64,000 nt of DNA. Origin: Hanleya hanleyi (lineage: Eukaryota > Mollusca > Polyplacophora > Lepidopleurida > Hanleyidae). Shown in pieces: positions 5,512 through 45,052 of the stretch. The DNA lies in assembly GCA_036873755.1 (NCBI GenBank), contig JAVTVY010045524.1, positions 124,001 to 188,000 of the forward strand, written 5' to 3'. The first letter of the stretch is position 1. Every line of letters starts with the position of its first letter. Under the pieces are notes generated by a model that ran no database searches, was not told where the DNA came from, and saw only the letters and a program-made list of their open reading frames with translations. The translations under genes were made by a program, and so were the position numbers.

Positions 5512-8500
5512 AATTACAAGCGTCTAGTCCGTCATTCATAATCCAGCCGTCGTCCATTAGAGAATATCCGCGTCCATAATCCAAAGACATATTCCATTTT
5601 CCACATAACAGTATTAGCACCAAATTCAAAAAGACAATCATAGTATACATAAACATAGGCTTGTTTCCTGCAAGAGAGAAGCGGTCAACATTTTTCAATG
5701 ATGCCAGCAAGACATCATGATGTTCCAAAAATATCAAATCCGTATCGCTGATCAGTATTCTTAATCCATAATATTCGTTATAGAGTCGTCATCTAAAAAA
5801 GATGTATCTCAGTCACGCTTTGATTGTGACTGTTCATATGAGTACCATGAGGATCTTGAAGTACATGGGTTCATACGGCCCCTAGCCCCGGGTTAAGCGG
5901 AATTAGACACAAGTTACGAAACGTAGCGCCATAGATCTTGCACGCTACGTTCGTATTTTGCTATCAGCATGCGATATGTATCGCCAAATTTGAGAAACTT
6001 TGAGTGGAGGCGCTTGGTGGAATAGCCCTGTTTTATAAGTTTCTGCAACAATGTTTTGTGACGTTGATTAAAATCATCACATTTAACACAGGATCTAGCA
6101 AATGCTACTAAGCGAGATATGTATACGCCATATGCAGGTCCCACTGGAATATTACTATCCAGAAAGGGATAGTTTACGATGTCGAAATTGTAATCATCTA
6201 TTTTGTCATAAAGTCGACGAGAGAGAATGCCCGCTTCATTTTTATAGAGATAGAGGTCTAAATAAGATGTGCCTGTAGGGCTATCTGTAGTTTCCTTCAA
6301 ATCCAGTGAAGGTGGATATATATCCTTCACTGCGTCATTTATATATCGATTATCCACAGCGAGAAGATCGTCTATATAGCGTTTGGTGAATGAGAAGGAA
6401 CGGGCTTTGAATGGATCGGTTTTTGAAAGCGCCTGAATATAGTCATATTCATAAGAGAACAGATACAGGTCAGCCAACAGGGGTGCACAATTAGTACCCA
6501 TTGGAATACCTATATGCTGCTGATATATTGTGTTGCCAAATTTCACATAGATATTTTAATGAGAAATTCAAGCAACTCTATAAACAAAGAAACATCCCAT
6601 GAATGATATCTCTTGTATGTAGTAGAGCTAAAGAATGCTTTATGGCTTCCGACATTAATATATCTACGATCAGTTTTCTTGAACACAGATACTATTAATG
6701 AACTTAGACGGTCAATAAGGTCCTGATGAGGGATTGTAGTATAGAGAGTCGAGAAATCTCATGTGGATACATGTCTGTACGGTATGTGACCTTTAACATC
6801 AAGCTCTTCCGTAAGACATTTTGAGTTTTTCAATATCCACATACATTCAACGCCAGAGTTCTTAGAAATAATGGCGCAATACCTTTCCCAAAATGCTTTT
6901 ACCTCCTGAAGGGCCCTCGTCAATAGGGTTGAAAGAAGCTTGGTGGTGCAGCTTCTAGAAGCAGCTATGAATCTAGCTTTGTATGGTGATTTATGCATTT
7001 TGGGAGTCCAGTATATTTTTGGTATGTCGTTATGATTGGTTGGAAGACAAATACCTCTTTCCCTGGGAAACTTTTTGTGATTGTTAAATAAATCTTCCAG
7101 AGTAAATGCAGTTTGGGAGTAAGTAGACGTATTTGATGAAGATATGTCTACACTCAATTCTTTAACCAGCACCTGGTAATAGTAATATTTACATATGAAT
7201 ATTATATTATTCGGAGCTTTGTCTGCTGGGACTATGACGAATTTACTCTGGAGATTTGCTAGAACTTCTTGCGAATTGAGGTTTCTCAGAACTTGTTTTG
7301 CTTGGGAAGAGTACTTCTGTCAATATGGCGGATTGTTTCAACGACCTTGCTCTTGGTGAGGTCCAGCCAATCAGCGAGTACTGTAGGTTCAACTTTTTCT
7401 CGCTTAGACCAATCAATAACGTACTGTTCCAATGCAGACAGGACTATCTTCTGGTCGGCCTTCAGATTTATTCTTCTTGGCTCTCTATATTTAGGTCCTT
7501 TCATCAGGAGTAATTTCAGATCCTTATCACTCACCACATCAAGGTCACCAGCCACAATATGTTTGCATGGTGTATAGATAAAGTTCGACGATTCACAATC
7601 ACAACTATAGCGTCCTGACGTGTATAAGTTCCAGTCAAACTCCTGGACAGCATTGGAGTAATTGAATATTTTGGTGGCTATAGATTTAGTGTACTTATAT
7701 GAAATGCAAGGAGGTTCTGTGAACTTAAAATAGTTTGGTACAGCGTTGCGTACCTCTGGATCATTCAGGATTCGAGGTAAATTAATGATGTCCAGTCCTT
7801 TATCTAAGTAGTTGAGTTTCAAGAAAAGCCGATCTTGAGAGGTTTCGATTATGTTCACTGGACGATACAACCGAAAATACGCTATATCTTGACATATTTT
7901 AATGATTTTTGATGGTATTATATTTCCTGAAGACGCAGATTGTTGTATATCTCTGGCTATTTGATCTAAAGCTCTCAGAGGTAACGCATACAGAACTGTA
8001 CGTAAGCTATGTATACTATTGGGTGTGTTAGTTAAACCCACTAAGTAATTTAAAGTGATATGATCGTGAATCATCGAACTATTAAACTTTCGCCAACCAT
8101 GGCTGCGATGTCTCCGTTCATGGGGTTTAAATAGTTGGGTAATGTTGGATATATTTGAACGGCAGTTTGTAGCGTTGCCGAACCCACTGACATTATCATT
8201 TAAACCAAACGGAAACACTGACCCAAGTTCTAGCATCCAGAATAATTCCCGCTCTCGGATTTTTCTCTCAAATCCAAAAGGGGAATCCTTAGTAGATGGA
8301 TAGACGTCTATGATCTGAATACTAGAGTTATCCCAGCCGTGGTCGGGTCCAGAAAAATGCCTGCCTATAAGCAATTGCTTTTTCCTAACGGATTTTCTGT
8401 GACCGTTCACCCTAAGATGGAGTCTTTGGGTGGTCTTGCCAACATACTGTTGACCACACTTCTTACAGGAAACTAAATAAATACAGTTTGTAGTAGAACA

Positions 8501-8910
8501 ACTAAGATCAACATACGAGTTAACAGAATATGAGTTACCAGTTAACGTGGAACTAAATGAAGCTGAAGTATTAAAGAGTGGACACGTGAGACATCCACGA
8601 TGTCCACACTTAGAAATTTTGAAATTATTACATGTAGAATTCGGTGCTAAACAATCATCAAGCGCAATATTACAAGGTTTGATGTCGTGGCCTTGCTTTG
8701 CTGTCAGAAATATATCTGTCATTTGGATTGAAAAAGGTCTTAGTGCATTTCGAACTATTAGAGACTCGGCCGAGAAACCTGCACTAAGGTTCCTCGGGTC
8801 TGTCTTCATATTTTTTCTTATAGTTGTGCTCATTATGTTTGTTGGGTGTGCAGGGGCCCGGCCTCGGGGACAACTTGTCCACCAGCAGAATCCAGGCATA
8901 CACAGGTTAA
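5512..8910 (-). mobile_element. Full-length Penelope-like element with N-terminal GIY-YIG (Naiad/Chlamys-like organisation)
   Basis: A 3,399-bp unit bounded by AATTACAAGCG at 5512 and the same 3'-end sequence of the adjoining tandem copy at 8911. Protein order on the - strand is a Cys/His cluster, GIY-YIG endonuclease, a long middle region, then reverse transcriptase. Canonical Penelope has RT before GIY-YIG. Permuted PLEs with N-terminal GIY-YIG are known as Chlamys and Naiad. A second, partial copy directly abuts its 5' end, the tandem pseudo-LTR arrangement common in PLEs. Confidence 0.85.
5914..8833 (-). pseudogene. PLE polyprotein: zinc cluster, GIY-YIG endonuclease and reverse transcriptase
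   Basis: Likely start at 8833 (MSTTIRKNMK). Upstream frame to 9136 is only the 3' UTR of the neighbouring copy. Seen in order: CGHRGCLTC cluster; GIY-YIG domain beginning CIYLVSCKKCGQQYVGKT with LHLRVNGHRKS and an ERELFWMLELG block; a central region with a CxC...CKH motif (YSCDCESSNF...CKHIVAG); then RT boxes ARFIAASRSC, DFSTLYTTIPH (motif A), QHIGIPMGTNCAPLLADLYL (motif B) and KRYIDDLL (motif C). The frame breaks near 7290, at a TGA in place of a Trp codon near 6759, and near 6550. It is otherwise well preserved, implying recent activity of the family. Confidence 0.87.
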
Positions 8911-11900
8911 AATTACAAGCGTCTAGTCCGTCATTCATAATCCAGCCGTCGTCCATTAGAGAATATCCGCGTCCATAATCCAAAGACCTATTCCATTTTT
9001 CACATAACAGTATTAGCACCAAATTCAAAAAGACAATCATAGTATACATAAACATAGGCTTGTTTCCTGCAAGAGAGAAGCGGTCAACAGTTTTCAATGA
9101 TGCCGGCAAGACATCATGATGTTCCAAAAATATCAAATCCGTATCGCTGATCAGTATTCTTAATCCATAATATTCGTTATAGAGTCGTCATCTAAAAATG
9201 ATGTACCTCAGTCACGCTTTGATTGTGACTGTTCATATGAGTACCATGAGGATCTTGAAGTACATGGGTTCATACGGCCCCTAGCCCCGGGTTAAGCGGA
9301 ATTAGACACAAGTTACGAAACGTAGCGCCATAGATCTTGCACGCTACGTTCGTATTTTGCTATCAGCATGCGATATGTATCGCCAAATTTGAGAAACTTT
9401 GAATGGAGGCGCTTGGTGGAATAGCCCTGTTTTATAATTTCTGCAACAATGTTTTGTGACGTTGATTAAAATCATCACATTTAACACAGGATCTAGCAAA
9501 TGCTACTAAGCGAGATATGTATACGCCATATGCAGGTCCCACTGGAATATTACTATCCAGAAAGGGATAGTTTACGATGTCGAAATTGTAATCATCTCTT
9601 TTGTCATAAAGTCGACGAGAGAGAAGCGAGATATGTATACGCCATATGCAGGTCCCACTGGAATATTACTATCCAGAAAGGGATAGTTTACGATGTCGAA
9701 ATTGTAATCATCTCTTTTGTCATAAAGTCGACGAGAGAGAAGCGAGATATGTATACGCCATATGCAGGTCCCACTGGAATATTACTATCCAGAAAGGGAT
9801 AGTTTACGATGTCGAAATTGTAATCATTTCTTTTGTCATAAAGTCGACGAGAGAGAAGCGAGATATGTATACGCCATATGTAGGTCCCACTGGAATATTA
9901 CTATCCAGAAAGGGATAGTTTACGATGTCGAAATTGTAATCATCTCTTTTGTCATAAAGTCGACGAGAGAGAAGCGAGATATGTATACGCCATATGCAGG
10001 TCCTACTGGAATATTACTATCCAGAAAGGGATAGTTTACGATGTCGAAATTGTAATCATCTCTTTTGTCATAAAGTCGACGAGAAAGAAGCGAGATATGT
10101 ATACGCCATATGCAGGTCCCACTGGAATATTACTATCCAGAAAGGGATAGTTGACGATGTCGAAATTGTAATCATCTCTTTTGTCATAATGTCGACGAGA
10201 GAGAAGCGAGATATGTATACGCCATATGCAGGTCCCACTGGAATATTACTATCCAGAAATGGATAGTTTACGATGTCGAAATTGTAATCATCTCTTTTGT
10301 CATAAAGTCGACGAGAGAGAAGCGAGATATGTATACGCCATATGCAGGTCCCACTGGAATATTACTATCCAGAAAGGGATGACGAGAGAGAAGCGAGATA
10401 TGTATACGCCATATGCAGGTCCCACTGGAATATTACTATCCAGAAAGGGATAGTTTACGATGTCGAAATTGTAATCATCTCTTTTGTCATAAAGTCGACG
10501 AGAGAGAAGCGAGATATGTATACGCCATATGCAGGTCCTACTGGAATATTACTATCCAGAAAGGGATAGTTTACGATGTCGAAATTGTAATCATCTCTTT
10601 TGTCATAAAGTCGACGAGAAAGAAGCGAGATATGTATACGCCATATGCAGGTCCCACTGGAATATTACTATCCAGAAAGGGATAGTTTACGATGTCGAAA
10701 TTGTAATCATCTCTTTTGTCATCAAGTCGACGAGAGAGAAGCGAGATATGTATACGCCATATGCAGGTCCCACTGGAATATTACTATCCAGAAAGGGATA
10801 GTTTACGATGTCGAAATTGTAATCATCTCTTTTGTCATAAAGTCGACGAGAGAGAAGCGAGATATGTATACGCCATATGCAGGTCCCACTGGAATATTAC
10901 TATCCAGAAAAGGATAGTTTACGATGTCGAAATTGTAATCATCTCTTGTCATAAAGTCGACGAGAGAGAAGCGAGATATGTATACGGCATATGCAGGTCC
11001 CACTGGAATATTACTATCCAGAAAGGGATAGTTTACGATGTCGAAATTGTAATCATCTCTTTTGTCATAAAGTCGACGAGAGAGAAGCGAGATATGTATA
11101 CGCCATATGCAGGTCCCACTGGAATATTACTATCCAGAAAGGGATAGTTTACGATGTCGAAATTGTAATCATCTCTTTTGTCATAAAGTCGACGAGAGAG
11201 AAGCGAGATATGTATACGCCATATGCAGATCCCACTGGAATATTACTATCCAGAAAGGGATAGTTTACGATGTCGAAATTGTAATCATCTCTTTTGTCAT
11301 AAAGTCGACGAGAGAGAAGCGAGATATGTATACGCCATATGCAGGTCCCACTGGAATATTACTATCCAGAAAGGGATAGTTTACGATGTCGAAATTGTAA
11401 TCATCTCTTGTCATAAAGTCGACGAGAGAGAAGCGAGATATGTATACGCCATATGCAGGTCCCACTGGAATATTACTATCCAGAAAGGGATAGTTTACGA
11501 TGTCGAAATTGTAATCATCTCTTTTGTCATAAAGTCGACGAGAGAGAAGCGAGATATGTATACGCCATATGCAGGTCCCACTGGAATATTACTATCCAGA
11601 AAGGGATAGTTTACGATGTCGAAATTGTAATCATCTCTTTTGTCATAAAGTCGACGAGAGAGAAGCGAGATATGTATACGCCATATGCAGGTCCCACTGG
11701 AATATTACTATCCAGAAAGGGATAGTTTACGATGTCGAAATTGTAATCATCTCTTTTGTCATAAAGTCGACGAGAGAGAAGCGAGATATGTATACGCCAT
11801 ATGCAGGTCCCACTGGAATATTACTATCCAGAAAGGGATAGTTTACGATGTCGAAATTGTAATCATCTCTTTTGTAATAAAGTCGACGAGAGAGAAGCGA

Positions 11901-21819: not shown

Positions 21820-22274
21820 CCGGATATAGGTCAATCGAACGTGCAACAATGTTGCAATTCGGGGAGCCAGGTGTTTGGCACGTGACAACACCAAGCAGAC
21901 GACAGCGAAATTCTGGCGGGGAAAAACCCCACAGACAGTACATGGCCTGTCATGTTCCCATCTCACCGAACATACCCTTCGCACCTCACCGAAAAAACAC
22001 GAAGGTAAACGACATTGTAGGGAAAAACCCCACAGACAGGTCAGTACATGTCCTATCAGGTTCACAGGCCCCATTCACACAGACCGGAAGTGACGTCATA
22101 CCGCACGTGATGGGAAAAACCCTAACATGTCTAAACATGATCCAAGGTCAAAGACAAGATGAAAGGATACAGGTCAACTCAAGTGCACTCAATGACCTTT
22201 GACCTCTGTCACGTGATATGCAAATTTCTGAGGTCAAAGGTCAACCGGAGGGCTTTTGTCGTCTATATACCACT
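21820..22274 (-). repeat. Right terminal inverted repeat of the Polinton
   Basis: Longer partner of the left repeat. It contains a composite ETS-CRE motif CCGGAAGTGACGTCA (22084-22098), CACGTG boxes at 22104 and 22210, and DR1-type motifs at 22193-22205 and 22231-22243 (AGGTCAAAGGTCA). These resemble host promoter motifs. Binding is inference. Confidence 0.85.
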
Positions 22275-28639: not shown

Positions 28640-29934
28640 GATACGGTACTCTTACTGTCCGACAGCAATAGGAGGGCGTGAACCCTTAGGACATAAAGGC
28701 CTATCGGTACGCCTCCTGTTTGCCAGGCGTCTTATGCTCTAGAGGGCCGGAGTCTTGCATCTCGACAGCATAATTTGAGGGGCATAAGCGATTAGGATAT
28801 AAACAGGTCACAGCAACCTGTAACCATCTGGGTCATCTATACGCGGTAAGACTGACCCTGGGATCGTGTGTATCCATTTTCAGCCTACTTTCGGCAATTG
28901 CAAGAGGAAATTTCCAGATATCAATACCACGTGACTTCGTCAGCCAATCAGCTAAAGTCTACCGACGTAACCCCCAAAGTAGCCCGCCATTTTCGAGTCA
29001 TGTGATGTTCTACTTGTTCGAAATTACAGATCTACCACACCTCTTGGATGATACCAAAGTTATTCATACCTATATATTTTGTAAGCCCAGGCAATATCTG
29101 TTTCCGAGGTATGTATGAAAATCTGCAATTTATCAGATTTTTCGAGTCTGTTCTCCGTCGGATGAAGGCCGAACAGAATCCGGTAAAATACCGGATATCG
29201 CTCCGCGATAATGGAGACACACGATTCGCAAGCCATCTTATGGATGGCGAAGTGTACGCAAATGAGGTTACAGAGAATCACTTCTCTAAAATGGAGGCAA
29301 AAATGTAGTTTTGCGTAGTAACTTTGCATTATACATCATACTACTTCAAAATCTCCAGGTAACTTGGCTTATATATTGTTACATGTCGTAGCAGGCAGTG
29401 ATTAAACAATGAAAGTGTGCGAAGTCTAATTTTTAATAGAGAACAAAACATGGCGTCTATTGTTATGCAAATTTGATAGACGACAATTTGTTTCTTCTCC
29501 ATCCGATACGAATATATATGTTCATAGTCGCCTATGACGGATGTCTCATAGTTCGTTTTTTAGTTTATGGGCAAAACATATTTTAACTCCATTATTAGAG
29601 AGGTACTCTCTAACCCGATAACATCCTCCCCACAGCGCATGCTCCATTTCGCGGGCTCATTTAACATCCCTGCCTCCAATAGCGGAAGTTGACCTTTACT
29701 ACGTTGCTATATGACTTATAGGGGAAAACCCACGTACGCACAGTTCCGTTTGAATCCGACCGAACAACTTCAGTTTTGCACATAAGCGAACTGCCTTTCA
29801 TATGTTTTGTCCAGGTAAACAGGGAAAATAATCTCCAGATAATACTTTTTAACGCTAGGTCAACAGAGGTATTATGCAGACTTGAAAAGTAATGGAAATG
29901 TTCGGCAAACATCTATTTTACTATATATGATGAC
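28640..29934. other. Non-repetitive stretch, possible host promoter-like area, no gene called
   Basis: Contains AGCCAATCAG (CCAAT box, near 28943) and GCCATTTT-type words near 28988, and an 86-codon open frame at 29048-29308 that I cannot assign to a family. Nothing else supported. Confidence 0.3.
29929..29934. repeat. Left 6-bp target duplication GATGAC
   Basis: Directly outside the left terminus. Identical to 37885-37890. Confidence 0.92.
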
Positions 29935-29976
29935 AGTAGTATATAAAGTGCAAATTGGGGCCGATTTTGCCGCAGA

Positions 29977-29995
29977 TGGCCACCAGGGGGCGCCA
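29977..29995 (+). promoter_or_regulatory. CTCF-consensus-like motif in the left inverted repeat
   Basis: TGGCCACCAGGGGGCGCCA matches the animal CTCF core consensus at all but about one position. Inverted copies occur at 30150-30168 and, more loosely, 30244-30260. Confidence 0.55.
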
Positions 29996-30125
29996 CCAGT
30001 CTCGTGACGTCACTTCCGGTGCCGGTCACGTGACCGGAAATGACCTTTGACCCCAGGCTTCCGGTCACGTGACCGGAAGTTGCAGCGCCTGGGGTCAAAG
30101 GTCATTTCCGGTCACGTGACCGGCA

Positions 30126-30140
30126 CCGGAAGTGACGTCA
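30126..30140 (+). promoter_or_regulatory. Composite ETS-CRE motif
   Basis: CCGGAAGTGACGTCA combines an ETS core and a full CRE. Inverted copies are at 30005-30019 and 37692-37706, and the same word occurs in the Polinton right repeat at 22084-22098. Confidence 0.5.
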
Positions 30141-30149
30141 CGAGACTGG

Positions 30150-30168
30150 TGGCGCCCCCTGGTGGCCA
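30150..30168 (-). promoter_or_regulatory. CTCF-consensus-like motif, inverted copy
   Basis: Reverse complement of the 29977-29995 motif, placed by the internal palindrome, so two opposed sites lie about 155 bp apart. Confidence 0.55.
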
Positions 30169-30835
30169 TCTGCGGAAAATGGGCGCCAATTTCTCCTTTT
30201 ACAATAGCGGATATTAATAATGGTGCAACAAAAAAGGGCCGGGTGGCGCCCCCTGTCGGGAGTAGGTCAATAAGGGTCCACATCCCCGTTTACAAAGCGG
30301 ATTCTACTAATGGTGCACAGGGGTTCACTTCCGGAGTCCCCTGACAGCCCGGAGTTATCTTCCCCTAGTTCCAGTTTTTGCCACCAGGGCAATGAGGGCA
30401 CCTGGCCATATATACCAGTCATCAAGGTCAATACGAGCCAATTAGCCCTTTGTGGTTAAATCCGGTATACAAAAGAACCCAAACTCACAATGTTGTATAA
30501 AAAAAAACACATTTTATAACAGGAGAACACAACATATATACAACAGTTATTTCCTCTTATTATAACAGTCCGGTGGAATATCCGCAGTGTCAGCTTTAGC
30601 GTTTATAGAACATATATATACATCAGTTATTCCTCTTATTATAAACATTAAAAGCCCAGTAGCTGTGTAAGTTCATATTTATCCCTCTAATACGTTGTAG
30701 TCACCCCATCGGAGTGCACTTTGCGCTTGGGGTAGGTGAAGGTGTCCCGCGAGGAGATGAAATATTTTTCTTTCTCATGACGATAATACGGCATATCATA
30801 TAACAGCTAATCACCCTTTTCAACATGACGGGTCA

Positions 30836-31020
30836 ATTATATAAATAATATTATTAACTGTAATAATCAAGTTTCAATTCTCTTACACAATATATACAAG
30901 CGTCACTCAACGGTGTCAAATATATAAATAATATTTTAACTGTAGTATTAAAGTTTGAATTGTCTTACACAATATATACAAGAGTGACTCACCGTTTTCA
31001 ATATCAGGGGTACGAGTTTA
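30836..31020. repeat. Two tandem copies of a ~95-bp AT-rich unit
   Basis: TATATAAATAATATT...ACACAATATATACAAG occurs twice downstream of the 390-aa gene. A second short duplication (TTGATATAGTTACGTAGCTCC) follows at 31031-31115 and overlaps the gene's 3' end. Confidence 0.75.
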
Positions 31021-31067
31021 ATTCTGGCAAATTGATATAGTTACGTAGCTCCAGCTGAAAATGCAGC

Positions 31068-32240
31068 TTACATATTTAAATTGATATAGTTACGTAGCTC
31101 CAGTTGAAAATGAGCATCATCCCGATATCGGCTAGCTTTGGTATTCAAGAAGTTTTTCATGTCACTTTCCGGGATATCCTCATGCACACGGAGGCGAAAG
31201 GTCTGTTCAACATGTACCGCTTGTACATTCTGTAAGGCCTTATTCCAGGTGGTCGTTGGTACAGGGCGTATGCAGGTATGCCGCAGGCCATCATGTGTTG
31301 TGCATCCCATGCAGACGTTGAGTTTACCAATTTCCTGGCTTAATGTATGTAGGTAAGCGGTTTTGTACACTTGGAACAGATAATCCGCTATATCCAGTCT
31401 TAAGATGTGCGAAACTTCTGGCGCAATAGTTTGTAGTTTACGCCATGCTGTTAGGTGTAGAGCCGCCCCAGTGGTCGATGGACGCTGCATGTCGGTCTCT
31501 GTATCATATTGCCAACAGCTGATGTGTAGTAAGGGCTGATCTTTGTACAGCGTATAGCGGACAACCACGGATTCGTTGATGTATATACGCCTCTCTTCTG
31601 TACCGGAGTTTTCGATGAATGATTCCATTTCATGGAAAGCGAAACGCAGTCGGTGCCAGGCGGTAGGTGACAAGTCAATGCGCCGGGCAGGTCGCTTCCC
31701 TCTAGGGGCTGTGGTGAATAGGATCCGTTGATTGTTACCGATTTTCAAGGTCACATTCGGTGAAAGTTCCCAGTACCGGTTAGCCACTTTCATCGCTTCG
31801 TCAATAATGGAAAAATATGGAATATTCCCCATAGGCAGTTCGTTCTCCTGGCCGTTTCTTGGCTCGCGCAAATCAGCTTCCCTAGCCATTCCCGTCGACG
31901 CATCAATAACATTTCTAGTGTCACATTGTTGGGGTCTGGTGGTAGGCATGGTTGTGTCGGTGGCAGTGTCCGGTCTGGGCATTGGTGGTGGTGTTGCTGT
32001 AAGATCATGAAGAACCGCATCGACAGCGGCCGTATATTCAGGATGAAAATTGTCCATGTATACCGTAGGCTTAGAATAGTCTGGATTCATTGCTCTGCGT
32101 AACAGGGCTTCGCCTAGACATTGAGATAATGGATACAGATCTCGAAAACTGTCCTTTTTTATAGAAAAATACCCGCCCACGCTCGGGAAAACCCCCGACG
32201 TTGTACCAACGTATTTTTCACCCGCCAATGACAATTGCAC
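31068..32240 (-). CDS. 390-aa protein with two possible PC4-like repeats, function unknown
   Basis: Intact. The N-terminal ~80 residues are unrecognised, followed by a Pro/Thr-rich linker (about 81-110). From about residue 150 two similar units are visible, each a short beta-rich segment followed by L(S/T)xxAWxxL and a helix: IDLSPTAWHRLRFAFHEMES and LHLTAWRKLQTIAPEVSHIL. A unit that ends in a beta-strand, a linker and LxxxxWxxL...PEI recalls the PC4/Sub1 single-stranded-DNA-binding fold. This is pattern recognition only. A Cys/His cluster (CMGCTTHDGLRHTC) lies near residue 295. The first ~90 bp of the gene region is duplicated upstream at 32277-32370. It is separated from the other genes by 2 kb of non-coding DNA with tandem repeats. 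Confidence 0.75.
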   Translation of the reverse strand: MQLSLAGEKYVGTTSGVFPSVGGYFSIKKDSFRDLYPLSQCLGEALLRRAMNPDYSKPTVYMDNFHPEYTAAVDAVLHDLTATPPPMPRPDTATDTTMPTTRPQQCDTRNVIDASTGMAREADLREPRNGQENELPMGNIPYFSIIDEAMKVANRYWELSPNVTLKIGNNQRILFTTAPRGKRPARRIDLSPTAWHRLRFAFHEMESFIENSGTEERRIYINESVVVRYTLYKDQPLLHISCWQYDTETDMQRPSTTGAALHLTAWRKLQTIAPEVSHILRLDIADYLFQVYKTAYLHTLSQEIGKLNVCMGCTTHDGLRHTCIRPVPTTTWNKALQNVQAVHVEQTFRLRVHEDIPESDMKNFLNTKASRYRDDAHFQLELRNYINLNM

Positions 32241-32276
32241 AAAATCGTTGCCATGCCGACGTACGACACGACCTTT

Positions 32277-32370
32277 GAAGACTGTCCTGTTCTATAGAAA
32301 AATACCCGCCCACGCTCGGGAAATCATCCGACGTTCAACCAACGTATTTGTCAGCTGTCAATCATTCTCA
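32277..32370. repeat. Direct duplication of the 5' part of the 390-aa gene
   Basis: ACTGTCC..., TATAGAAAAATACCCGCCCA and CGCTCGGGAAA recur from 32145-32225. The duplicate is not in an open frame. Confidence 0.8.
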
Positions 32371-32399
32371 ATGTACGCGATGACCTTTAGCGACCAAAC

Positions 32400-33480
32400 G
32401 TACTGACTGGGCTATGGCCCGAAGCCAGGTTCGCGGAAATCCCCCCCTTTCGAAAATATATTTGTTCTCCTATCAATGCCTTTTTTCAAACTGAAGCTCA
32501 GTCTTTTCCCATACACAGCGAACTTCGTGATGTGTCCTTTTGATGTTGTGGCGAACCACAGTAAAATGCTGGCTACACCCCTGATTGTTTACATTCTGTG
32601 TCATTTGAAAAAATGTCTAGTTTTGTTAAAAAAAAAGAAAGATGTGTTGATCCCATAAAGATAAGATAAGAACTTTATTGACACTGAAACACAGTCACAT
32701 TGCTGGTTATATGGTTATTTGGCACAACAGGACCGAAATACAACAGTGAGCGTGAAACAATGTGTTCGATGGAACGGGGCGGGGAAGATTTTCTTTTTCT
32801 AGTTTGGCAGATCGTATTTCAGTACAAAACACGGGGAACCCGCTCCACAGACATTTTACACCAAATAGCTGAACCCATTGAGATCATTAATCTATAGGTG
32901 TTGTAGCATGTTATTATGGCCAGTCTATGATCGAGTGCCACGCCAGTGTCGAGCATTTATTGTCCAGTTTGCACCAGCAAAAGAAAAATTACGAACGTTC
33001 ATCGAACGTATGCTGACGTCATCGGGGCACCTTCATGTGGTCTTTCGCCGTATATGACTCACTTACATATGAATGAATGAATTAGTTTGATATAATTTTG
33101 TTGGGTATGAATGATTTAAAGTGGAAATATTCCGTACAGGTCTGTTTTATGTAACAAACGCTAAGAAAGATGGCTGCCCAAGGTCAATTTCCCCGGCTTG
33201 CCCGGATAATAGCTCCATTCAAACCACAGCCCCATCTCTACGCTGTAACACAAGGGAGACAACTCGGACTAGACCAATTCTTCTTGTCGGCGACGGTGAT
33301 GTCCCCTGATTCGAACATTTCTACCTAATTTGCGTGTATAGGGTGGTGGTCATTTTTTATGGATTTTACTATGGGCTGTGAGGTTGTTCATGTAGAATGC
33401 GATGGGAAAAGCTATGAAAGTACCGGGTAGGTCTGTATATAGATGCATATAGACCCTTATACACTCATATACTGGGATAT
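32400..33480. other. Non-coding interior of the compact element
   Basis: No supported gene on either strand. Short open frames here lack family features. Confidence 0.5.
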
Positions 33481-33489
33481 TAGCCCAAT

Positions 33490-34060
33490 GTATGTATAAA
33501 TCCATACGGGGTGAACATGTTGGAGTCTAGGTGGAGCACTAGTGGCTCGATGGGGTAGAGTGAGGTCTTATTTTAAAGCTCTCGTGAAGGCGCACGGGAC
33601 TAGGATGTTTTCAATATTCTGCGCATGCGCAGACAGGCTGTATTATGGACATAGCCGTTTTGAGGTCGAGGGGAGCCCCTATTGGTCCAATGGAGCCGTA
33701 TGAGGTATCCATGTAAAGCAGTCATGAAGGAGCATGCGCCTAGACTAGTGTGTTGTTTGTTGTCAACCTGTTGCGCATGCGCAGTCTGGCCGTATTATGG
33801 ACATAGCCGTTTTGGGGCCGAGGTGAGACCGTGGTGGGTCGATGGTATCGAGTGAAGTATCAATGTAAAGCAGTGGTGAGGGAGCATCCGACGGGCGGGG
33901 TGTGACGTCCGTTTTCAACATGGTGCGCATGTGCAGTCTGGCCGTATTATGGACATAGACGTTTTGGGATCCAGGTGAGACCGTGGTGGGTCGATGGTGT
34001 CGTATGAGGTATTAATGTGAAGCAGTCGTGAGGGAGCATGCGCCTATGTTGTTGAAACAC
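33490..34060 (+). repeat. 152-bp tandem repeat, about 3.5 units, with NRF1-type motifs
   Basis: Units share GTATTATGGACATAG, CGTTTTGGG, GTGGGTCGATGG and GAGGGAGCATGCGCC. The palindrome GCGCATGCGC, the NRF1 core, recurs at 33621, 33773 and (as GCGCATGTGC) 33925, exactly 152 bp apart. Two CCAAT-box words (GTCCAATCAG) follow at about 34286 and 34353. Confidence 0.88.
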
Positions 34061-34395
34061 GGACTTTACACCTAACCCATGAGCAATCATGTAATATTTT
34101 TGGGTCCAGACCATTTCTGTTTCAAATGAACGCCCGCTGCACCAAGGATGACAGATGAGAGAAAAACAACAACAACAACAACAACAACAAGAACAAGTTT
34201 TCAAATAGTTTATTTTCCCCTCCATCATAACATACCCACGCTGGGGGAGCCGCGTTGGGTATGTTTACAATTCAAGAATACTCTTGTCCAATCAGAGACC
34301 GCCATTTGGTCCTGTCATGTTCGTTCTTGCCCGTTAGATGTCTGCTCGGCTGTCCAATCAGAAGTCGCCGTTTCAGAAAGTTTCATCCTTTTGTT

Positions 34396-34932
34396 CTAGT
34401 CCTCGTCGGGCAGGCCTGGATATTCGTCGGGCAACATGTCCTTAAACAGTTGTTTGCGCATTCTGATCGCATTTTCCAGGGCCTCGGTGGGTGATAACCC
34501 CATATCCTCTTCCAAGTGACGCTTGGTCTTCATGATGGACCTGTGCGTGGGGTCACCTTTCATTTCAAGCGGTAGTAAGGTATACTGTTCATAGATCGCC
34601 ATGGCTGTTTTCCTGATGCAGGGCCGCATTTCGGTGTACGCCTGTTGTAAGTTATCCTGTCCCGCGTCCTCGATCGCTTCAGCGTGAGTATTGATAGCTT
34701 CATCCACAATACGATCCCAGAAGGTAGGTTCTGCCTCACTTTCCTGAGATGTAGGCTGACTGTCTGAGGTCAAGCTCTCTGTATCAGTCAATACACTCTC
34801 ATCAATCTCTGTATCAGCATCCGCCTCAACGGACTCCTCGGCGTCTTCAATCCCATGTATATTTTTCTGGTGTCGCATCATATCGTAATGTTTGGTGAAC
34901 GTGCGCTCGCACTCAGAGCAAGTATAAGCCAT
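34396..34932 (-). CDS. C2H2 zinc-finger protein of the compact Polinton-like element
   Basis: An ATG at 34974 exists, but it lies only 5 bp from the TATA box, so translation more likely starts at 34932 (MAYTCSECERTF). This gives 178 aa. One C2H2 finger lies at the N-terminus with spacing C-x2-C-x12-H-x4-H, then an acidic Glu/Asp/Ser linker, then a helical domain (FWDRIVDEAINTHAEAIEDA and MRKQLFKDMLPDEYPGLPDED tail). Proteins with a single N-terminal finger, acidic linker and helical tail are familiar companions of Polintons in molluscs. A DNA-binding role is likely. Target unknown. Confidence 0.85.
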   Translation of the reverse strand: MAYTCSECERTFTKHYDMMRHQKNIHGIEDAEESVEADADTEIDESVLTDTESLTSDSQPTSQESEAEPTFWDRIVDEAINTHAEAIEDAGQDNLQQAYTEMRPCIRKTAMAIYEQYTLLPLEMKGDPTHRSIMKTKRHLEEDMGLSPTEALENAIRMRKQLFKDMLPDEYPGLPDED

Positions 34933-34978
34933 GTTGACGGTTGAACGTCGACTGTGCGTGTTTTGGGAATACACTTGC

Positions 34979-34985
34979 TTTTATA
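34979..34985 (-). promoter_or_regulatory. TATA box of the zinc-finger gene
   Basis: TATAAAA on the - strand, 47 bp upstream of the preferred ATG at 34932. It decides the start choice. Confidence 0.6.
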
Positions 34986-35133
34986 GACGCCCGTCAACGC
35001 TTAGCTTAACGTTTCAACGCCCTAGTGAATTAGCTCAGAAGCTGTAATTTTACTAGATACCAATACCTCGAAATGGAGCGACGCTCGTCTCAACGCCTTA
35101 CCGCCCGTTTCAACGCCCGTCTCCATACCTGTC

Positions 35134-35499
35134 TCAACGCGTTATGCCATGTCCATCATCACTGGACGTTGATGTTGGAGGTTGAAGAAGATAAGTTCCC
35201 GTCTCCAGCTGGGTCTCCATAAAGGTTTGAAATGCTTCATGCAGGGTCAGCAGATTCTGGGCACGGGTAGTTGTGTTGGTATCCTCTTCGGGTACTATCT
35301 GTTTCTTATGCAGCAGAAGACATACCCGTGTCACCCATTGGATGTCATCTATGAGCCCGATAAGGTGACAACGCATGCGTTGGTCATTGATTCCACCTTG
35401 AGCTCTATCAATGATAGCATCGACATTGGTTTTACGTAACGCTTCGGCTAGAATATCCTCGTTGTTGAGTTCAAACAAGTTGCACTCTGCAGTGCTCAT
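35134..35499 (-). CDS. Small helical protein, unknown function
   Basis: 121 aa, intact, mostly predicted helix (LNNEDILAEALRKTNVDAII, IQWVTRVCLLLHKK), with a Thr/Ser-rich C-terminus. TATAAATA at 35531-35538 lies about 32 bp upstream of the ATG, giving a very short leader. I recognise no family. Confidence 0.65.
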   Translation of the reverse strand: MSTAECNLFELNNEDILAEALRKTNVDAIIDRAQGGINDQRMRCHLIGLIDDIQWVTRVCLLLHKKQIVPEEDTNTTTRAQNLLTLHEAFQTFMETQLETGTYLLQPPTSTSSDDGHGITR

Positions 35500-35530
35500 G
35501 GTGAAATGAGGGGACTGGTGCCGTGTGGTC

Positions 35531-35538
35531 TATTTATA
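35531..35538 (-). promoter_or_regulatory. TATA box of the 121-aa gene
   Basis: TATAAATA on the - strand, about 32 bp before the start codon. Confidence 0.6.
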
Positions 35539-35614
35539 GTGAGACGCTTTTGATTTTAATGATGCGTTCGAACAAATGTTTCTTTTGTGCTATTGCTGTG
35601 ACATACGCCGCTTT

Positions 35615-35866
35615 TCAGTTCATGCCCGAGGTTTTCAACATCGACGCTGTTCTTTCGATTTCCATATGGACCGGGTCCTTGTCCAGCAATTTTATATGGG
35701 TCAGGAGGTCGGCATACTGCTGACGTAAAGCCCGTCGTAGTCTGGGTGCCAAAGTATTATGGGCTAACATTGCGGCTTCCTCTTTCGAATACCCTTTGTG
35801 TTGAAACTTGTTTTCTGTGGCCTCCAACATCTCACCCAGCTCGGCGTCCATACTTTCTGTGAACAA
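35615..35866 (-). CDS. Small helical protein, unknown function
   Basis: 83 aa, intact, highly charged and helical (MDAELGEMLEATENKF, LAPRLRRALRQQYADLLTHI). It lies 16 bp downstream of the ATPase stop, so it may share the ATPase transcript. Family not recognised. Confidence 0.55.
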   Translation of the reverse strand: MFTESMDAELGEMLEATENKFQHKGYSKEEAAMLAHNTLAPRLRRALRQQYADLLTHIKLLDKDPVHMEIERTASMLKTSGMN

Positions 35867-35882
35867 ATCCTTCTGCTGTGAG

Positions 35883-36776
35883 CTAATCCTTTAGCCTCGA
35901 GTTCAAATTATGTTCATTCCCTTGTACGGGTTCGGGTTGGTCCTTCACGGTTGGGTGGTATTCGGGGACTAATGTTATAAAGGGGACCTGATGTACGGGA
36001 GCGGATTGCTGCTGCTGCTCTGCCAGGAGTGGACTCGGTGGATGGTGTAGGGGCTGCGGTGATGCCTCACCGGGCAACAGGTGGGTCGTCAGCCGGCGAT
36101 CTTCGGGGGTATGGGCTTTTAAATCTACGAGCAGGTAGCCGTACGGACGACTTGTCGCTCCTTGAAACGCCTGCATGAAATGGTCGATGTTCTGAGGGAA
36201 AATTCGACTACCAAACACACGGATTTGGGCTCTGTCGATGGGGTTGGAGAACAACACAAAGTATTGGCAGTTCAAGGCAATATCTCTGGACGCCTTCCCT
36301 TGAGGAAAGAGATTCTGAGTCAAATAGATGACGGACAGATTCCGATGATGGGACCCTTTGGTGAATAGGTCGGCAATTTTCGAATTGTCCTTGGCCGCAC
36401 TCATCAGATCATCGAGCACTACCACGTTGGTCTGCTCGGGATCGAAGAAATAGGGTTCGTCTATGTCGTGAGGAATACCTGGGACGAAACTCACATTCTG
36501 TAGTCGCGTAGTTTCGTAGGCGGGCTGCCATTGGCTATAACACCATACAACGCGTGTATAACGGATGGGCCCTTCCTCTAAGAACTTCATCACCCAGGAC
36601 GTCTTTCCACACCCCGTGGGGCCGCTCACCGTCATCGTATAGGGATGTTCTACGCCACTTGGTGGACCTATTGCGGGACTTGGTGGTGTCTCTTGTCCAT
36701 GCGTTAGACGCATATGTCTGAGCATATTGTCGCGACGAGAGAGTGTCTTTTGACAGAACGGACATGTACTCGACAT
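35883..36776 (-). CDS. Packaging ATPase (A32/FtsK-like) with N-terminal C2H2 zinc finger, intact
   Basis: 297 aa. Residues 5-26 form a C2H2 finger (C5, C8, H21, H26). Walker A GPTGCGKT lies at 52-59, the family block VVWCYSQWQPAYE at about 76-88 and Walker B NVVVLDD at 117-123, followed by FTKGSHHRNLSVIYLTQNLF and NCQYFVLFSNPID. The last ~60 residues are Pro/Gln-rich. The ATPase core is homologous to the broken one at 2400-3010, which lacks the finger in its readable part. Known role of the family: ATP-driven DNA packaging into capsids. Here no capsid gene accompanies it, so it may act on a helper's capsid (inference). A TATAAG-type box lies at 36829-36835. Confidence 0.9.
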   Translation of the reverse strand: MSSTCPFCQKTLSRRDNMLRHMRLTHGQETPPSPAIGPPSGVEHPYTMTVSGPTGCGKTSWVMKFLEEGPIRYTRVVWCYSQWQPAYETTRLQNVSFVPGIPHDIDEPYFFDPEQTNVVVLDDLMSAAKDNSKIADLFTKGSHHRNLSVIYLTQNLFPQGKASRDIALNCQYFVLFSNPIDRAQIRVFGSRIFPQNIDHFMQAFQGATSRPYGYLLVDLKAHTPEDRRLTTHLLPGEASPQPLHHPPSPLLAEQQQQSAPVHQVPFITLVPEYHPTVKDQPEPVQGNEHNLNSRLKD

Positions 36777-36837
36777 GATACCCGGTCAAAGCATGGATAC
36801 AGACTGAGGCTAATGGTGTACAAACGATCTTATATGA

Positions 36838-37225
36838 CCACTCACTCACTCACTCACCGTCGTTAATGCGTCCATGCGTTAAGACGGGCGTTGGGGACGC
36901 CTCACGGGCGTTGTGCACGCCTCACTCACTCACTCACTCACTCACTCACTCAGTCACTCACTCACACTCACTCACTCACTCACTCACTCACTCACTCACT
37001 CACTCGCTCGTTCACTCACTCACTCACTCACTCACTCACATTCACTCACTCACTCACTCACTCACTCACTCACTCACTCACTCACACTCACTCACTCATT
37101 CACTCACTCACTCACTCACTCACTCACTCACACTCACTCACTCACTCACTCACTCACTCACATTCACTCACTCACTCACTCACTCACTCACTCATTCACA
37201 CTCACTCACTCACACGCGCGCATAC
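36838..37225 (+). repeat. (CTCA)n microsatellite
   Basis: Nearly 390 bp of CACT/CTCA tetranucleotide, with occasional CACACT interruptions, just upstream of the ATPase promoter. Open frames with Thr-His-Ser-Leu repeats are artefacts of it. Confidence 0.97.
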
Positions 37226-37399
37226 ACTCACACTCACAGGTAACTCTACCAGGTAGTTGGATGGAAAAATGGCCGCCACCAGTGCCTTTTTTGTTGCACC
37301 ATTATTAATATCCGCTATTGTAAAAGGCTAAATTGAAGCCGATTTTGCCGCAGATCGGCATGCTGACACTGCGGACCGACCGGTGAATGACGCACACTG

Positions 37400-37884
37400 T
37401 GACTGACCCTCGTATTTATGGCCCAGGTCCCTCGTTGCCCCTGGCGGCAAACAACTGGAACTAGGGGGAGATAACTCCGGGCTGTCAGGGGACCCCGGAA
37501 GTGAACCCCTGTGCACCATTATTAAGATCCGCTTTGTAAAAGGGGATGTGGACCCTTATTGACCTACTCCCGACAGGGGGCGCCACCCGTCGCAGTAATA
37601 AAGTTGCACCATTATTAATATCCGCTATTGTCTGCGGCATAATGGGCCCCAATTTGCCGCAGATGGCCACCAGGGGGCGCCACCAGTCTCGTGACGTCAC
37701 TTCCGGTGCCGGTCACGTGACCGGAAATGACCTTTGACCCCAGGCGCTGCAACTTCCGGTCACGTGACCGGAAGCCTGAGGTCAAAGGTCATTTCCGGTC
37801 ACGTGACCGGCACCGGAAGTCACGTCACGAGACTGGTGGCCATCTGCGGCAAAATCGGCCCCAATTTGCACTTTATATACTACT
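37400..37884 (-). repeat. Right terminal inverted repeat of the compact element
   Basis: Inverse of the left repeat with a few differences. The outermost CTCF-like word is lost through a deletion between GGTGG repeats near 37835, and 37610-37650 is rearranged. A further partial copy of internal TIR sequence lies at 37286-37345. Confidence 0.92.
37664..37682 (+). promoter_or_regulatory. CTCF-consensus-like motif in the right inverted repeat
   Basis: Same 19-bp word as at 29977-29995. A looser match, CCCGACAGGGGGCGCCA, lies at 37569-37585. Confidence 0.55.
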
Positions 37885-37890
37885 GATGAC
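37885..37890. repeat. Right 6-bp target duplication GATGAC
   Basis: Directly outside the right terminus. Identical to 29929-29934. Confidence 0.92.
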
Positions 37891-38707: not shown

Positions 38708-39601
38708 ATGACGGACGGACTCAGTCGAGAAGAAGCAATCTCTTTTCTGCAAGAAGAATTAGGAATTACTGACGCTGAAGGATTAATGGAGATGAATCAG
38801 TTGGAATTTCTCAACAAGTTCTGCGAATCTTTCCATAACCATAGCCCTTTCCATAATCTCGGTCTCCTAGCAGATGCGTTGCCGGACAGACACAGACCCA
38901 CGTGGGCTGAAGTTAAATCGAAGATGATCACCGGAATTGGCGGACTCTGTTACACGAGAAATTTGTTCTCGTACTACCTGTTGAAAGCGTTAGGATATAC
39001 CACAAAGCTGGTAATATCATGCGTAAGGAACCCGGCTGATCCTTCGTATCGGATCATCAATCATGTTATCACGGTCATACTGAATGTTGTCATCGAAGGA
39101 GATCGGTATTTAGTGGAAAACGGAGTGGGAGCTCCGAGTTTCAAGGCTATAGATGTCGGATTTGACGAAGAGTCGCCCGTATTTCATCAATCACATATGG
39201 CCTTTAAATACGTTCGAAGTGGTGATAAGATCGCCCGGATGCAGCAAGACAGAGCAAAAATGATCACGGCCCCTGGTGAATTTCGTCTATCACACGATTT
39301 CACGATGGAATTTTTTGAACCTCGAGAGATTGATCATTTCTTCGACAGGATCTACACAGACCCTTCAAGTCTCCGCTTTCACGAGGTCATTCGCTGCGTG
39401 AAATACACGGGTAACAAGGTTATAGCGATAAACAACAACCTCTTGCTTGTTGAAGATGAAGAGCACCGGTTACAAGAAACGAAATTGGAGTCACCCTCTG
39501 CCGTTATTGGCGCCATCAAACATCATTTCCCCATGATTCCTACTCATGTCGTGGAGAGGGCTGTTCACAATTGGACAATTGGAGTCAAATCGCCTCCGTA
39601 A
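38708..39601 (+). CDS. Arylamine N-acetyltransferase-like protein, intact single exon
   Basis: 297 aa, close to the usual 280-290 aa. The family transfers acetyl from acetyl-CoA to arylamines through a Cys-His-Asp triad in the cytosol. Seen: PFHNLGLL block (N-terminal helical bundle), GGLCYTRN with candidate nucleophile Cys at residue 81, INHVITVI with candidate His at 119, and YLVENGVG at 134-141 where the family has V-D-x-G-x-G, so Glu137 sits in the triad Asp position. Expected spacing from Cys to His (38) is normal. The GGxCxE/YxxN context is partly altered. It is the only intact gene in the window that looks cellular. It could be a divergent NAT with changed chemistry, or a non-catalytic relative. 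Confidence 0.75.
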   Translation: MTDGLSREEAISFLQEELGITDAEGLMEMNQLEFLNKFCESFHNHSPFHNLGLLADALPDRHRPTWAEVKSKMITGIGGLCYTRNLFSYYLLKALGYTTKLVISCVRNPADPSYRIINHVITVILNVVIEGDRYLVENGVGAPSFKAIDVGFDEESPVFHQSHMAFKYVRSGDKIARMQQDRAKMITAPGEFRLSHDFTMEFFEPREIDHFFDRIYTDPSSLRFHEVIRCVKYTGNKVIAINNNLLLVEDEEHRLQETKLESPSAVIGAIKHHFPMIPTHVVERAVHNWTIGVKSPP

Positions 39602-44796: not shown

Positions 44797-45052
44797 TCAA
44801 ACACGGCTCGGCTCAGGTACGGCGTATCACGTTGGGCACACTGGCTCTCGTCAGATCACCGAAGTTAAGCAACGTTGAGTCCGGTCAATACTTAGATGGG
44901 TGACCGGGTGCTGCACTGGTTGGGCTGATGAGTGTCCAGGACACTAGGAACAGACGATAGAGAGTGTCCTGGCACATATGTAGGCACCGTCGTGATATGA
45001 TTGAGACATCGTTGAAAACGACGTTAAATCCTACTCCTTCAAACACGGCTCG
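44797..45052 (+). mobile_element. 5S-rRNA-derived SINE (SINE3 type) with 14-bp target duplication
   Basis: Element 44811-45038 is flanked by TCAAACACGGCTCG at 44797-44810 and 45039-45052. The head (44817-44925) matches 5S rRNA in the internal promoter area (CCGAAGTTAAGCAACGTTGA, TACTTAGATGGGTGACCG, GGTGCTG), lacking the CCTGGGAATACC segment. The 3' tail CGTCGTGATATG...TGAAAACGACGTTAAAT matches the tail of the LINE at 52020-52712. The exact duplication suggests a fairly recent insertion. Confidence 0.92.

Follow-up and report, generated by a model that had tools for sequence, protein, structure and literature searches.

Virophages encode their own capsids, whereas phage satellites such as PICIs carry a recognition or packaging factor of their own, for example a small terminase, and borrow a particle or enzymes. 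Polintons (Mavericks) are marked by 6-bp target-site duplications (TSDs), long terminal inverted repeats (TIRs), an A32-type packaging ATPase, a protein-primed polymerase (PolB), an rve-type integrase, and double-jelly-roll and penton capsid genes. In Krupovic et al. (2014; PMC4028283), nine Polintons without capsid genes had also lost the ATPase and the protease. Another report (PMC11071296) describes segmented bidnaviruses, which have a PolB of the Polinton/adintovirus type and genes divided over segments.

The element described here occupies positions 29935-37884 of a 64,000-nucleotide stretch of Hanleya hanleyi DNA (the window). Like a Polinton, it has a 6-bp TSD, long TIRs with an AG.. 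tip, an A32-type ATPase and a relic of PolB. Unlike one, it is 8 kb long, is without integrase, the PolB body and a recognized capsid gene, and has hairpin ends, a second zinc-finger/tail gene and an orphan frame (p407). In logic it would resemble virophages and PICIs, which combine their own recognition or packaging factor with a borrowed particle or enzymes, although its host is an animal and virophages have capsid genes. Like the reduced Polintons of PMC4028283 it has no recognized capsid gene, but it kept the ATPase that those are described there as having lost. We consider it probable that the element is part of a Polinton-derived family that is mobile but non-autonomous, is driven in trans and retains a selected packaging-type ATPase. 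No such element is named in the titles or abstract openings among the literature matches listed, a set that lies mostly outside subscription journals.

A perfect duplication of GATGAC, read directly, flanks the element (29929-29934 and 37885-37890). This duplication and inverted repeats of about 480 bp had been proposed from the letters alone (the sequence-only reading), and both are borne out. The left TIR (29935-30418, forward strand, tip AGTAGTATATA) measures 484 bp and the right TIR (37409-37884, reverse strand) 476 bp, with 90% identity over 490 columns by blastn. In the window, AGTAGTATATA is present only at the two ends of the element (0.04 expected). The aligned arms show 29 substitutions in 470 positions and six gaps, and because the differences are patchy we rejected TIR divergence as a clock and set aside a neutral-decay simulation of it. 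Each arm carries a palindrome. The left one (29952-30192) is a near-perfect hairpin, 91% self-inverse, with a predicted fold of -164 kcal/mol (z -27), and the right one (37637-37869; -136.8 kcal/mol, z -19) has one arm 13 bp short. An inverted match pair like that of the left palindrome recurs at many further ends in the hairpin family, for which a first pass over the genome gave 991 candidates, the best 40 of which were scored. The interior includes a tandem array of three 152-bp units (33606-34061) and, in the stretch that separates the ATPase from the right end, a CTCA microsatellite (36921-37238).

The window also contains a Polinton at 98-22274 (TSD AGCGTC, tips AGCAGTATATA and AGTGGTATATA), with which the element had been said to share its termini. 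The two sets of ends are only similar: they agree at the tip and in one common 16-bp motif, and a blastn comparison of the two gives no match at E<=1e-3. Thus, we rejected this neighbor as a helper acting through shared ends, and its differing ends make it a poor helper candidate.

Three further 8-kb copies were fetched from the 2.48-Gb genome to which the window belongs, and they have the element's ends and arrangement of genes. Each of the four copies has a distinct perfect TSD (GATGAC, TACGGC, TGCCAC and AGCGCC), and therefore the 8-kb form is mobile and has moved as such. This recurrence at four sites argues against the strongest alternative, in which the element is an ordinary internal-deletion derivative, an autonomous Polinton minus PolB, integrase and capsid. 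Its ATPase would then be a left-over, with constraint inherited from full-length masters that continually shed copies. We regard this as possible but considerably less probable, although the treatment of elements below 10 kb as incomplete by Krupovic et al. (2014; PMC4028283) is in its favor.

Gene content varies among four further elements that have the element's hairpin ends. One (C38764, TSD GCCGGT) has the ATPase, the zinc-finger gene and a damaged PolB, another (C29331, TSD CGCGCA) has a damaged PolB only, a third (C32135, TSD GACCTG) has an integrase and another ATPase, and in the fourth our queries recognized nothing. A 6-bp TSD is present at the window element and at seven same-end relatives. 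The relatives with PolB or integrase are in keeping with a deletion origin, but the ATPase of the integrase-bearing relative is a different one (43% identity over 199 columns), which counts against it. The sequence-only reading had asked whether full Polintons share these TIRs, and had held that copies with polymerase, integrase and capsid between them would make the element a simple deletion. The neighboring Polinton does not share them, whereas relatives with ATPase and PolB (C38764) or with integrase (C32135) do. This goes halfway toward that refutation, although the three genes occur together in none of the eight same-end elements examined.

With the neighbor's integrase as query, tblastn at E<=1 finds no rve-type integrase in the element. 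The four 8-kb copies likewise give no integrase match, nor do the fetched stretches holding this ATPase at E<=1e-6. No capsid family appears among the Pfam matches of the scanned frames, a search with profiles that would not recognize Polinton capsid genes. The earlier statement that replication and integration genes are missing stands for the integrase but not entirely for the polymerase, since a scrap of the PolB C-terminus survives at 30690-30761 on the reverse strand. It scores 34.7 bits against the nearby PolB, and none of 500 shuffled elements does as well (best 29.3). In C38764 and C29331 PolB terminates in the same motif, which also closes relics in C46139, C32135 and C8951. Three of the four 8-kb copies have the scrap, and none was found in the other (C51923). 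Thus, the element descends from a PolB-bearing element. Such remains of a lost gene, between ends held in common with a fuller relative (C38764, with PolB), are also what a deletion derivative should show.

The packaging ATPase named in the sequence-only reading is confirmed. The reverse-strand gene at 35883-36776 encodes a zinc finger and an A32-type packaging ATPase by Pfam and database matches, with its motifs kept, and 2180 of 2557 database candidates match it at E<=0.001. However, the five unbroken frames that had been counted include two pieces of one broken gene. The 91-aa frame at 35615-35890 (reverse strand) is the ATPase tail domain, out of frame and ended early in the window copy (E 9.4e-16 at a database size of 1; 0 of 973 shuffles), and this 83/91-aa frame was rejected as an independent gene. 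The tail profile was built from 33 matching relatives, keeping matches of more than 60 residues (27 by our count). Sequence past the stop of this frame was rejected as further tail (score 0.0, equaled by 261 of 936 scored shuffles). In relatives, ATPase and tail share a single frame of 384-432 aa (C8951, 384; C15807, 409; C10784 and C35739, 411; C38764, 432). The ATPase core of the element deviates at 10 of 67 well-conserved columns, compared with a median of 1 in 120 relatives, one of which deviates as much, and it forms the longest terminal branch among 122 tips. In 25 of 29 other copies the ATPase reading frame is free of stops. The break before the tail in the window copy, together with damage to some p407 copies, is evidence for a deletion derivative. 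The break, the deviant core and its long branch also speak against the reading that we favor.

The 407-, 300- and 194-aa frames are longer than expected by chance, and a 131-aa frame is not. The gene at 34396-34932 (reverse strand; 178 aa from its first ATG) joins a zinc finger to the ATPase-tail domain but has no ATPase core (tail E 5.1e-14 at a database size of 1; 0 of 960 shuffles), and no relative was found among 30 database candidates. The 121-aa frame p121 (35134-35499, reverse strand), assessed by family searches and comparison of copies, has no credible match in Pfam, NCBIfam or PHROGs and is stop-free in 20 of 22 other copies. The orphan p407 (31068-32291, reverse strand, 407 aa) has no relatives among 2415 database candidates and 109 matches in its own genome. 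It is weakly PC4-like, with matches below the cut-off in one piece and one relative and not with the whole frame. It occupies the position of the PolB body in relatives, in which its first ~70 residues lie directly upstream of PolB, and this replacement is unexplained by deletion alone. NCBIfam and PHROGs give credible matches for the element's frames only to the ATPase and the zinc finger. Nothing useful came from PDB by sequence, from Pfam on ten non-coding middle-region frames, or from viral_contigs scans, whose one match, L002, was judged to be chance and rejected as a p407 relative.

Selection on the genes, which had been proposed as a check, separates them into two groups. The ATPase has a median dN/dS of 0.240 over 30 copies (432 pairs, one at or above 1) and the zinc-finger/tail gene 0.324 (147 pairs, six at or above 1), so both are under constraint across copies. 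In contrast, p121 (0.70, with a value of 1 or more in 24 of 236 pairs) and p407 (median 0.61 over five pairs, with a stop in two of three other copies) lean neutral, which speaks against the reading that we favor. A sixth p407 pair, with a value of 1.39, was excluded for its tiny dS. Pairs with dS<=0.02 were left out (3 ATPase, 17 p121, 6 zinc-finger and 1 p407), as were copies covered below 70% (5 p121, 6 zinc-finger and 2 p407), and eight duplicated places were each counted once. Left-over genes of a deletion derivative are expected to evolve neutrally, which the ATPase and the zinc-finger/tail gene do not. This also holds among the 8-kb copies, where the ATPase gives 0.24-0.51 in the six pairs drawn only from those four. 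Nevertheless, unseen autonomous masters could be the source of the constraint.

We favor a model in which the ancestor had hairpin ends and, besides PolB, genes for a zinc-finger packaging ATPase and a zinc-finger/tail protein. An orphan gene would later have taken the place of the PolB body, leaving its last codons behind. Because the 8-kb form is without integrase and a whole polymerase gene, both have to be supplied in trans; relatives sharing the hairpin ends would be the simplest source, and other Polintons another. Potential helpers with these cis-acting ends are C32135 (integrase) and C29331 (PolB), although the PolB genes of such relatives are damaged where seen. The genome has abundant integrase genes (at least 150 matches; 149 of 30737 candidates scored). 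ATPase and integrase share a contig only in the window's own and in C21339, in the latter about 53 kb apart, among 125 and 146 contigs listed, which is weak evidence because the counts cover only the matches listed. The ATPase and the zinc-finger/tail gene were probably kept under selection while the family multiplied, and are thus likely to be useful to the element. Judged by protein family, their likeliest task would be to recognize the element's own DNA and drive it into the capsids of a fuller relative, making the ATPase a putative packaging motor. The satellite with its own ATPase that had been proposed gains from the recurrent layout, the missing integrase, the constraint and the same-end relatives, whereas descent from a PolB-bearing element counts against it.

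A more specific proposal, which we hold only tentatively, is a packaging parasite of animal Polintons. Its constant and selected pair of genes, for a zinc-finger ATPase and a motor-less zinc-finger/tail partner, would pick out its own DNA by the ends and divert helper capsids, with PolB-only and integrase-bearing same-end elements as helper or complementing segments. A multi-copy family in which the ATPase stays under selection although integrase and polymerase were lost would suggest that animal Polintons form particles and have parasites of their own. The many copies in the genome make dating and selection tests feasible.

It is unlikely that we are instead seeing a split Polinton, with one gene set spread over separate same-end segments that make up for one another's missing genes, on the pattern of the segmented bidnaviruses (PMC11071296). 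The segments here are integrated elements, and complementation among them is conjectural. Elements with their own TSDs do carry ATPase, zinc-finger gene and p407, PolB alone, ATPase and PolB, or integrase and another ATPase, and a complete set is found in 0 of 8. However, this picture rests on eight elements with several broken genes, C38764 joins two modules, a capsid gene is recognized in none of them with the profiles used, and independent deletions would look alike.

Arrays of 152 bp related to those of the element adjoin 19 of the 29 other fetched ATPase places, instead of hairpin ends, and C29142 carries three ATPase copies spaced 3.66-3.69 kb apart. In the stretch retrieved for one such array-flanked element, on C10784, we did not find the left end. 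These arrangements would suit a selfish or host-recruited ATPase/zinc-finger cassette, spread by satellite-like or tandem amplification and having nothing to do with packaging, but we consider this highly improbable, as the array-flanked C35739 copy is itself an element of 6064 bp, bounded by Polinton-like tips and the TSD CAGGTA (by eye), and the ATPase motifs are preserved.

The 8-kb Polinton-like element (29935-37884) is bounded on both flanks by a perfect 6-bp target-site duplication (TSD), GATGAC. Its inverted repeats, put at about 480 bp in the sequence-only reading, measure 484 and 476 bp and are 90% alike by blastn between the arms; both features stand as first described. Each terminal repeat carries a near-perfect palindrome. 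The 326 bases of the left end fold at -164 kcal/mol (z -27) and the right end at -137 kcal/mol (z -19), whereas the same test yields z values of 0.6 and -2.0 for the ends of the nearby Polinton. The proposal that the two elements share termini holds in part. Their tips are similar and both carry TGACCTTTGACCYCAG, a motif whose seven window matches (≤2 mismatches; 0.09 expected) all lie within their ends, but blastn finds no match between them at E≤1e-3. All seven window sites of GGTCAAAGGTCA (≤1 mismatch; 0.32 expected) also fall in ends of these two Polinton-type elements, at 129-140, 22193-22204, 22232-22243, 30041-30052, 30093-30104, 37728-37739 and 37780-37791. We take this motif to resemble a nuclear-receptor DR1 site.

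All genes of the element lie on the minus strand. Counted from the right end, the first gene couples a zinc finger to an A32-type ATPase (35883-36776), for which 2180 of 2557 candidates pass E≤0.001. It is followed by its tail domain in another frame (35615-35890). Next are a 121-aa frame (p121) and a gene, ZnF, that joins a zinc finger to the same tail domain and lacks the motor (34396-34932); a 407-aa frame (p407) is last. A tail profile built from relatives matches the two tails at E 9.4e-16 and 5.1e-14 (database size set to 1), and none of 973 and 960 shuffles, respectively, scored as well. The ATPase frame spans 384-432 aa in relatives on other contigs of the assembly (C8951, 384; C15807, 409; C10784 and C35739, 411; C38764, 432). 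Thus, the window copy is broken at its tail, and the five unbroken frames originally reported cannot be upheld. Neither p407 (2415 candidates) nor ZnF (30 candidates) has a database relative at E≤1e-3. The best Pfam match for p407 is a sub-threshold one to PC4 (E 0.031 for a 70-aa piece); one of three members of a p407 alignment also gives PC4 below threshold (E 0.0031), and the whole window frame gives no match.

An ATPase search of the 2.48-Gb assembly scored 132 of 37054 candidates, including the window copy. All 132 matches listed are 87-100% identical and 100 are stop-free. Looking for further copies in the same genome, as had been proposed, yielded three more 8-kb elements with the same ends and layout, on C8951 (8054 bp, TSD TACGGC), C46139 (7960 bp, TGCCAC) and C51923 (8012 bp, AGCGCC). 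Stops interrupt p121 in C46139 and p407 in C46139 and C51923.

Other relatives share these ends and differ in content. C38764 (11255 bp, TSD GCCGGT) carries the ATPase, an interrupted ZnF and then PolB in broken frames, at the position held by p407 in the 8-kb forms. C29331 (7930 bp, CGCGCA) has PolB in two overlapping frames without the ATPase. In C32135 (11096 bp, GACCTG), an integrase (rve, E 2.1e-10) accompanies an ATPase of a second kind (Pox_A32, E 6.2e-5), a PolB/p407 remnant and further frames, four of five tested matching those of the neighbouring Polinton. In C19771 (7547 bp, CCCACC), all that is left is fragments of the p407 leader and of flanking DNA. On C6450, a stretch whose hairpin ends are partial contains an ATPase interrupted by a single stop; its p407 leader is followed by the beginning of PolB. 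The first ~70 residues of p407 lie directly upstream of PolB in C38764, C29331 and C6450, and therefore p407 occupies the place of PolB. On C36509 (156040-168498), four p407 gene pieces lie on one strand, the last three ~3.3 kb apart.

The element had been read as lacking a polymerase. It has no whole PolB, but the last PolB residues persist at 30690-30761 (17/26 identical, 34.7 bits by tblastn with the neighbour's PolB); the best score among 500 shuffled elements with six queries was 29.3 bits. The same motif ends PolB in C38764 and C29331. Comparable scraps occur in C46139, C32135 and C8951, and the search of the 8-kb copy on C51923 yielded none.

An integrase search of the same assembly gave at least 150 matches (149 of 30737 candidates scored). 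Among the matches listed, the ATPase and integrase searches have two contigs in common. One is the window's contig, whose integrase is that of the neighbouring Polinton; on the other, C21339, ~53 kb separate the two genes. Within these listings, the small overlap is a weak indication that the zinc-finger ATPase travels without an integrase.

Median Nei-Gojobori dN/dS ratios over distinct copies, for which pairs are not independent and copies dead after insertion raise the ratio, are 0.240 for the ATPase core (dN 0.029, dS 0.114; 30 copies, 432 pairs), 0.324 for ZnF (18 copies, 147 pairs, leaving out the low-coverage C46139 copy), 0.703 for p121 (23 copies, 236 pairs) and 0.606 for p407 (4 copies, 5 pairs). 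Comparing only the four 8-kb copies (six pairs) gives ATPase ratios of 0.24-0.51. In the window ATPase, 10 of 67 conserved columns deviate, and its terminal branch is the longest among 122 tips; both observations count against constraint. The constraint on the ATPase and ZnF means that these genes matter, be it for the element itself or for masters not seen here.

We file the family as Polinton-derived non-autonomous elements. The 8-kb form has moved as a unit and encodes neither its own integrase nor a whole polymerase, and its movement must therefore be in trans unless each copy lost genes in place. Its ATPase is predicted, from its family, to package DNA. Krupovic et al. (2014, PMC4028283) describe nine capsid-less Polintons that had lost ATPase and protease too, and leave out elements <10 kb as incomplete; the present family shows the reverse pattern, keeping the ATPase lost there. 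That these short elements divert the capsids of a helper is a tentative idea that we consider doubtful. Such loss in place by each 8-kb copy is unlikely given four like layouts. We regard as very improbable a split genome whose genes are spread over same-end segments.

The ATPase has a commoner setting than hairpin ends. Among 29 ATPase places examined besides the window, 19 have 152-bp arrays, five have hairpin ends nearby and five have neither. One array-flanked element (C35739, 96662-102725; 6064 bp, ends read by eye) has tips AGTAGTAGTATAAG and TSD CAGGTA and contains the ATPase, the p121 frame and zinc-finger frames. The left end of a second array-flanked copy, on C10784, was not found in the stretch examined. 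Four ATPase copies occupy one strand of C29142 (88847-105723), three of them 3.66-3.69 kb apart, and this spacing suggests tandem amplification. Protein P0026, of the same zinc-finger ATPase type, stands for a 90% cluster of 1802 sequences, a size that may reflect massive amplification in one or more genomes.

The neighbouring Polinton (98-22274, TSD AGCGTC) is of the full type and decayed, with integrase, ATPase and PolB all broken. A large insertion, with frames (5914-9136) that by eye resemble a Penelope-type retroelement, interrupts it. On a groundwater bacterial MAG contig (L001, 1-7071), a PolB-like frame, by our own reading backed by tblastn to the window's PolB, adjoins a packaging ATPase; the contig reads as a Polinton-like element whose origin is perhaps eukaryotic or viral. 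Elsewhere in the window, a 5S rRNA match (44814-44920, 46.9 bits) is either a gene or a 5S-derived repeat, and an open frame ~800 bp from the element (38708-39601) matches arylamine N-acetyltransferase (Acetyltransf_2, E 9.8e-19).
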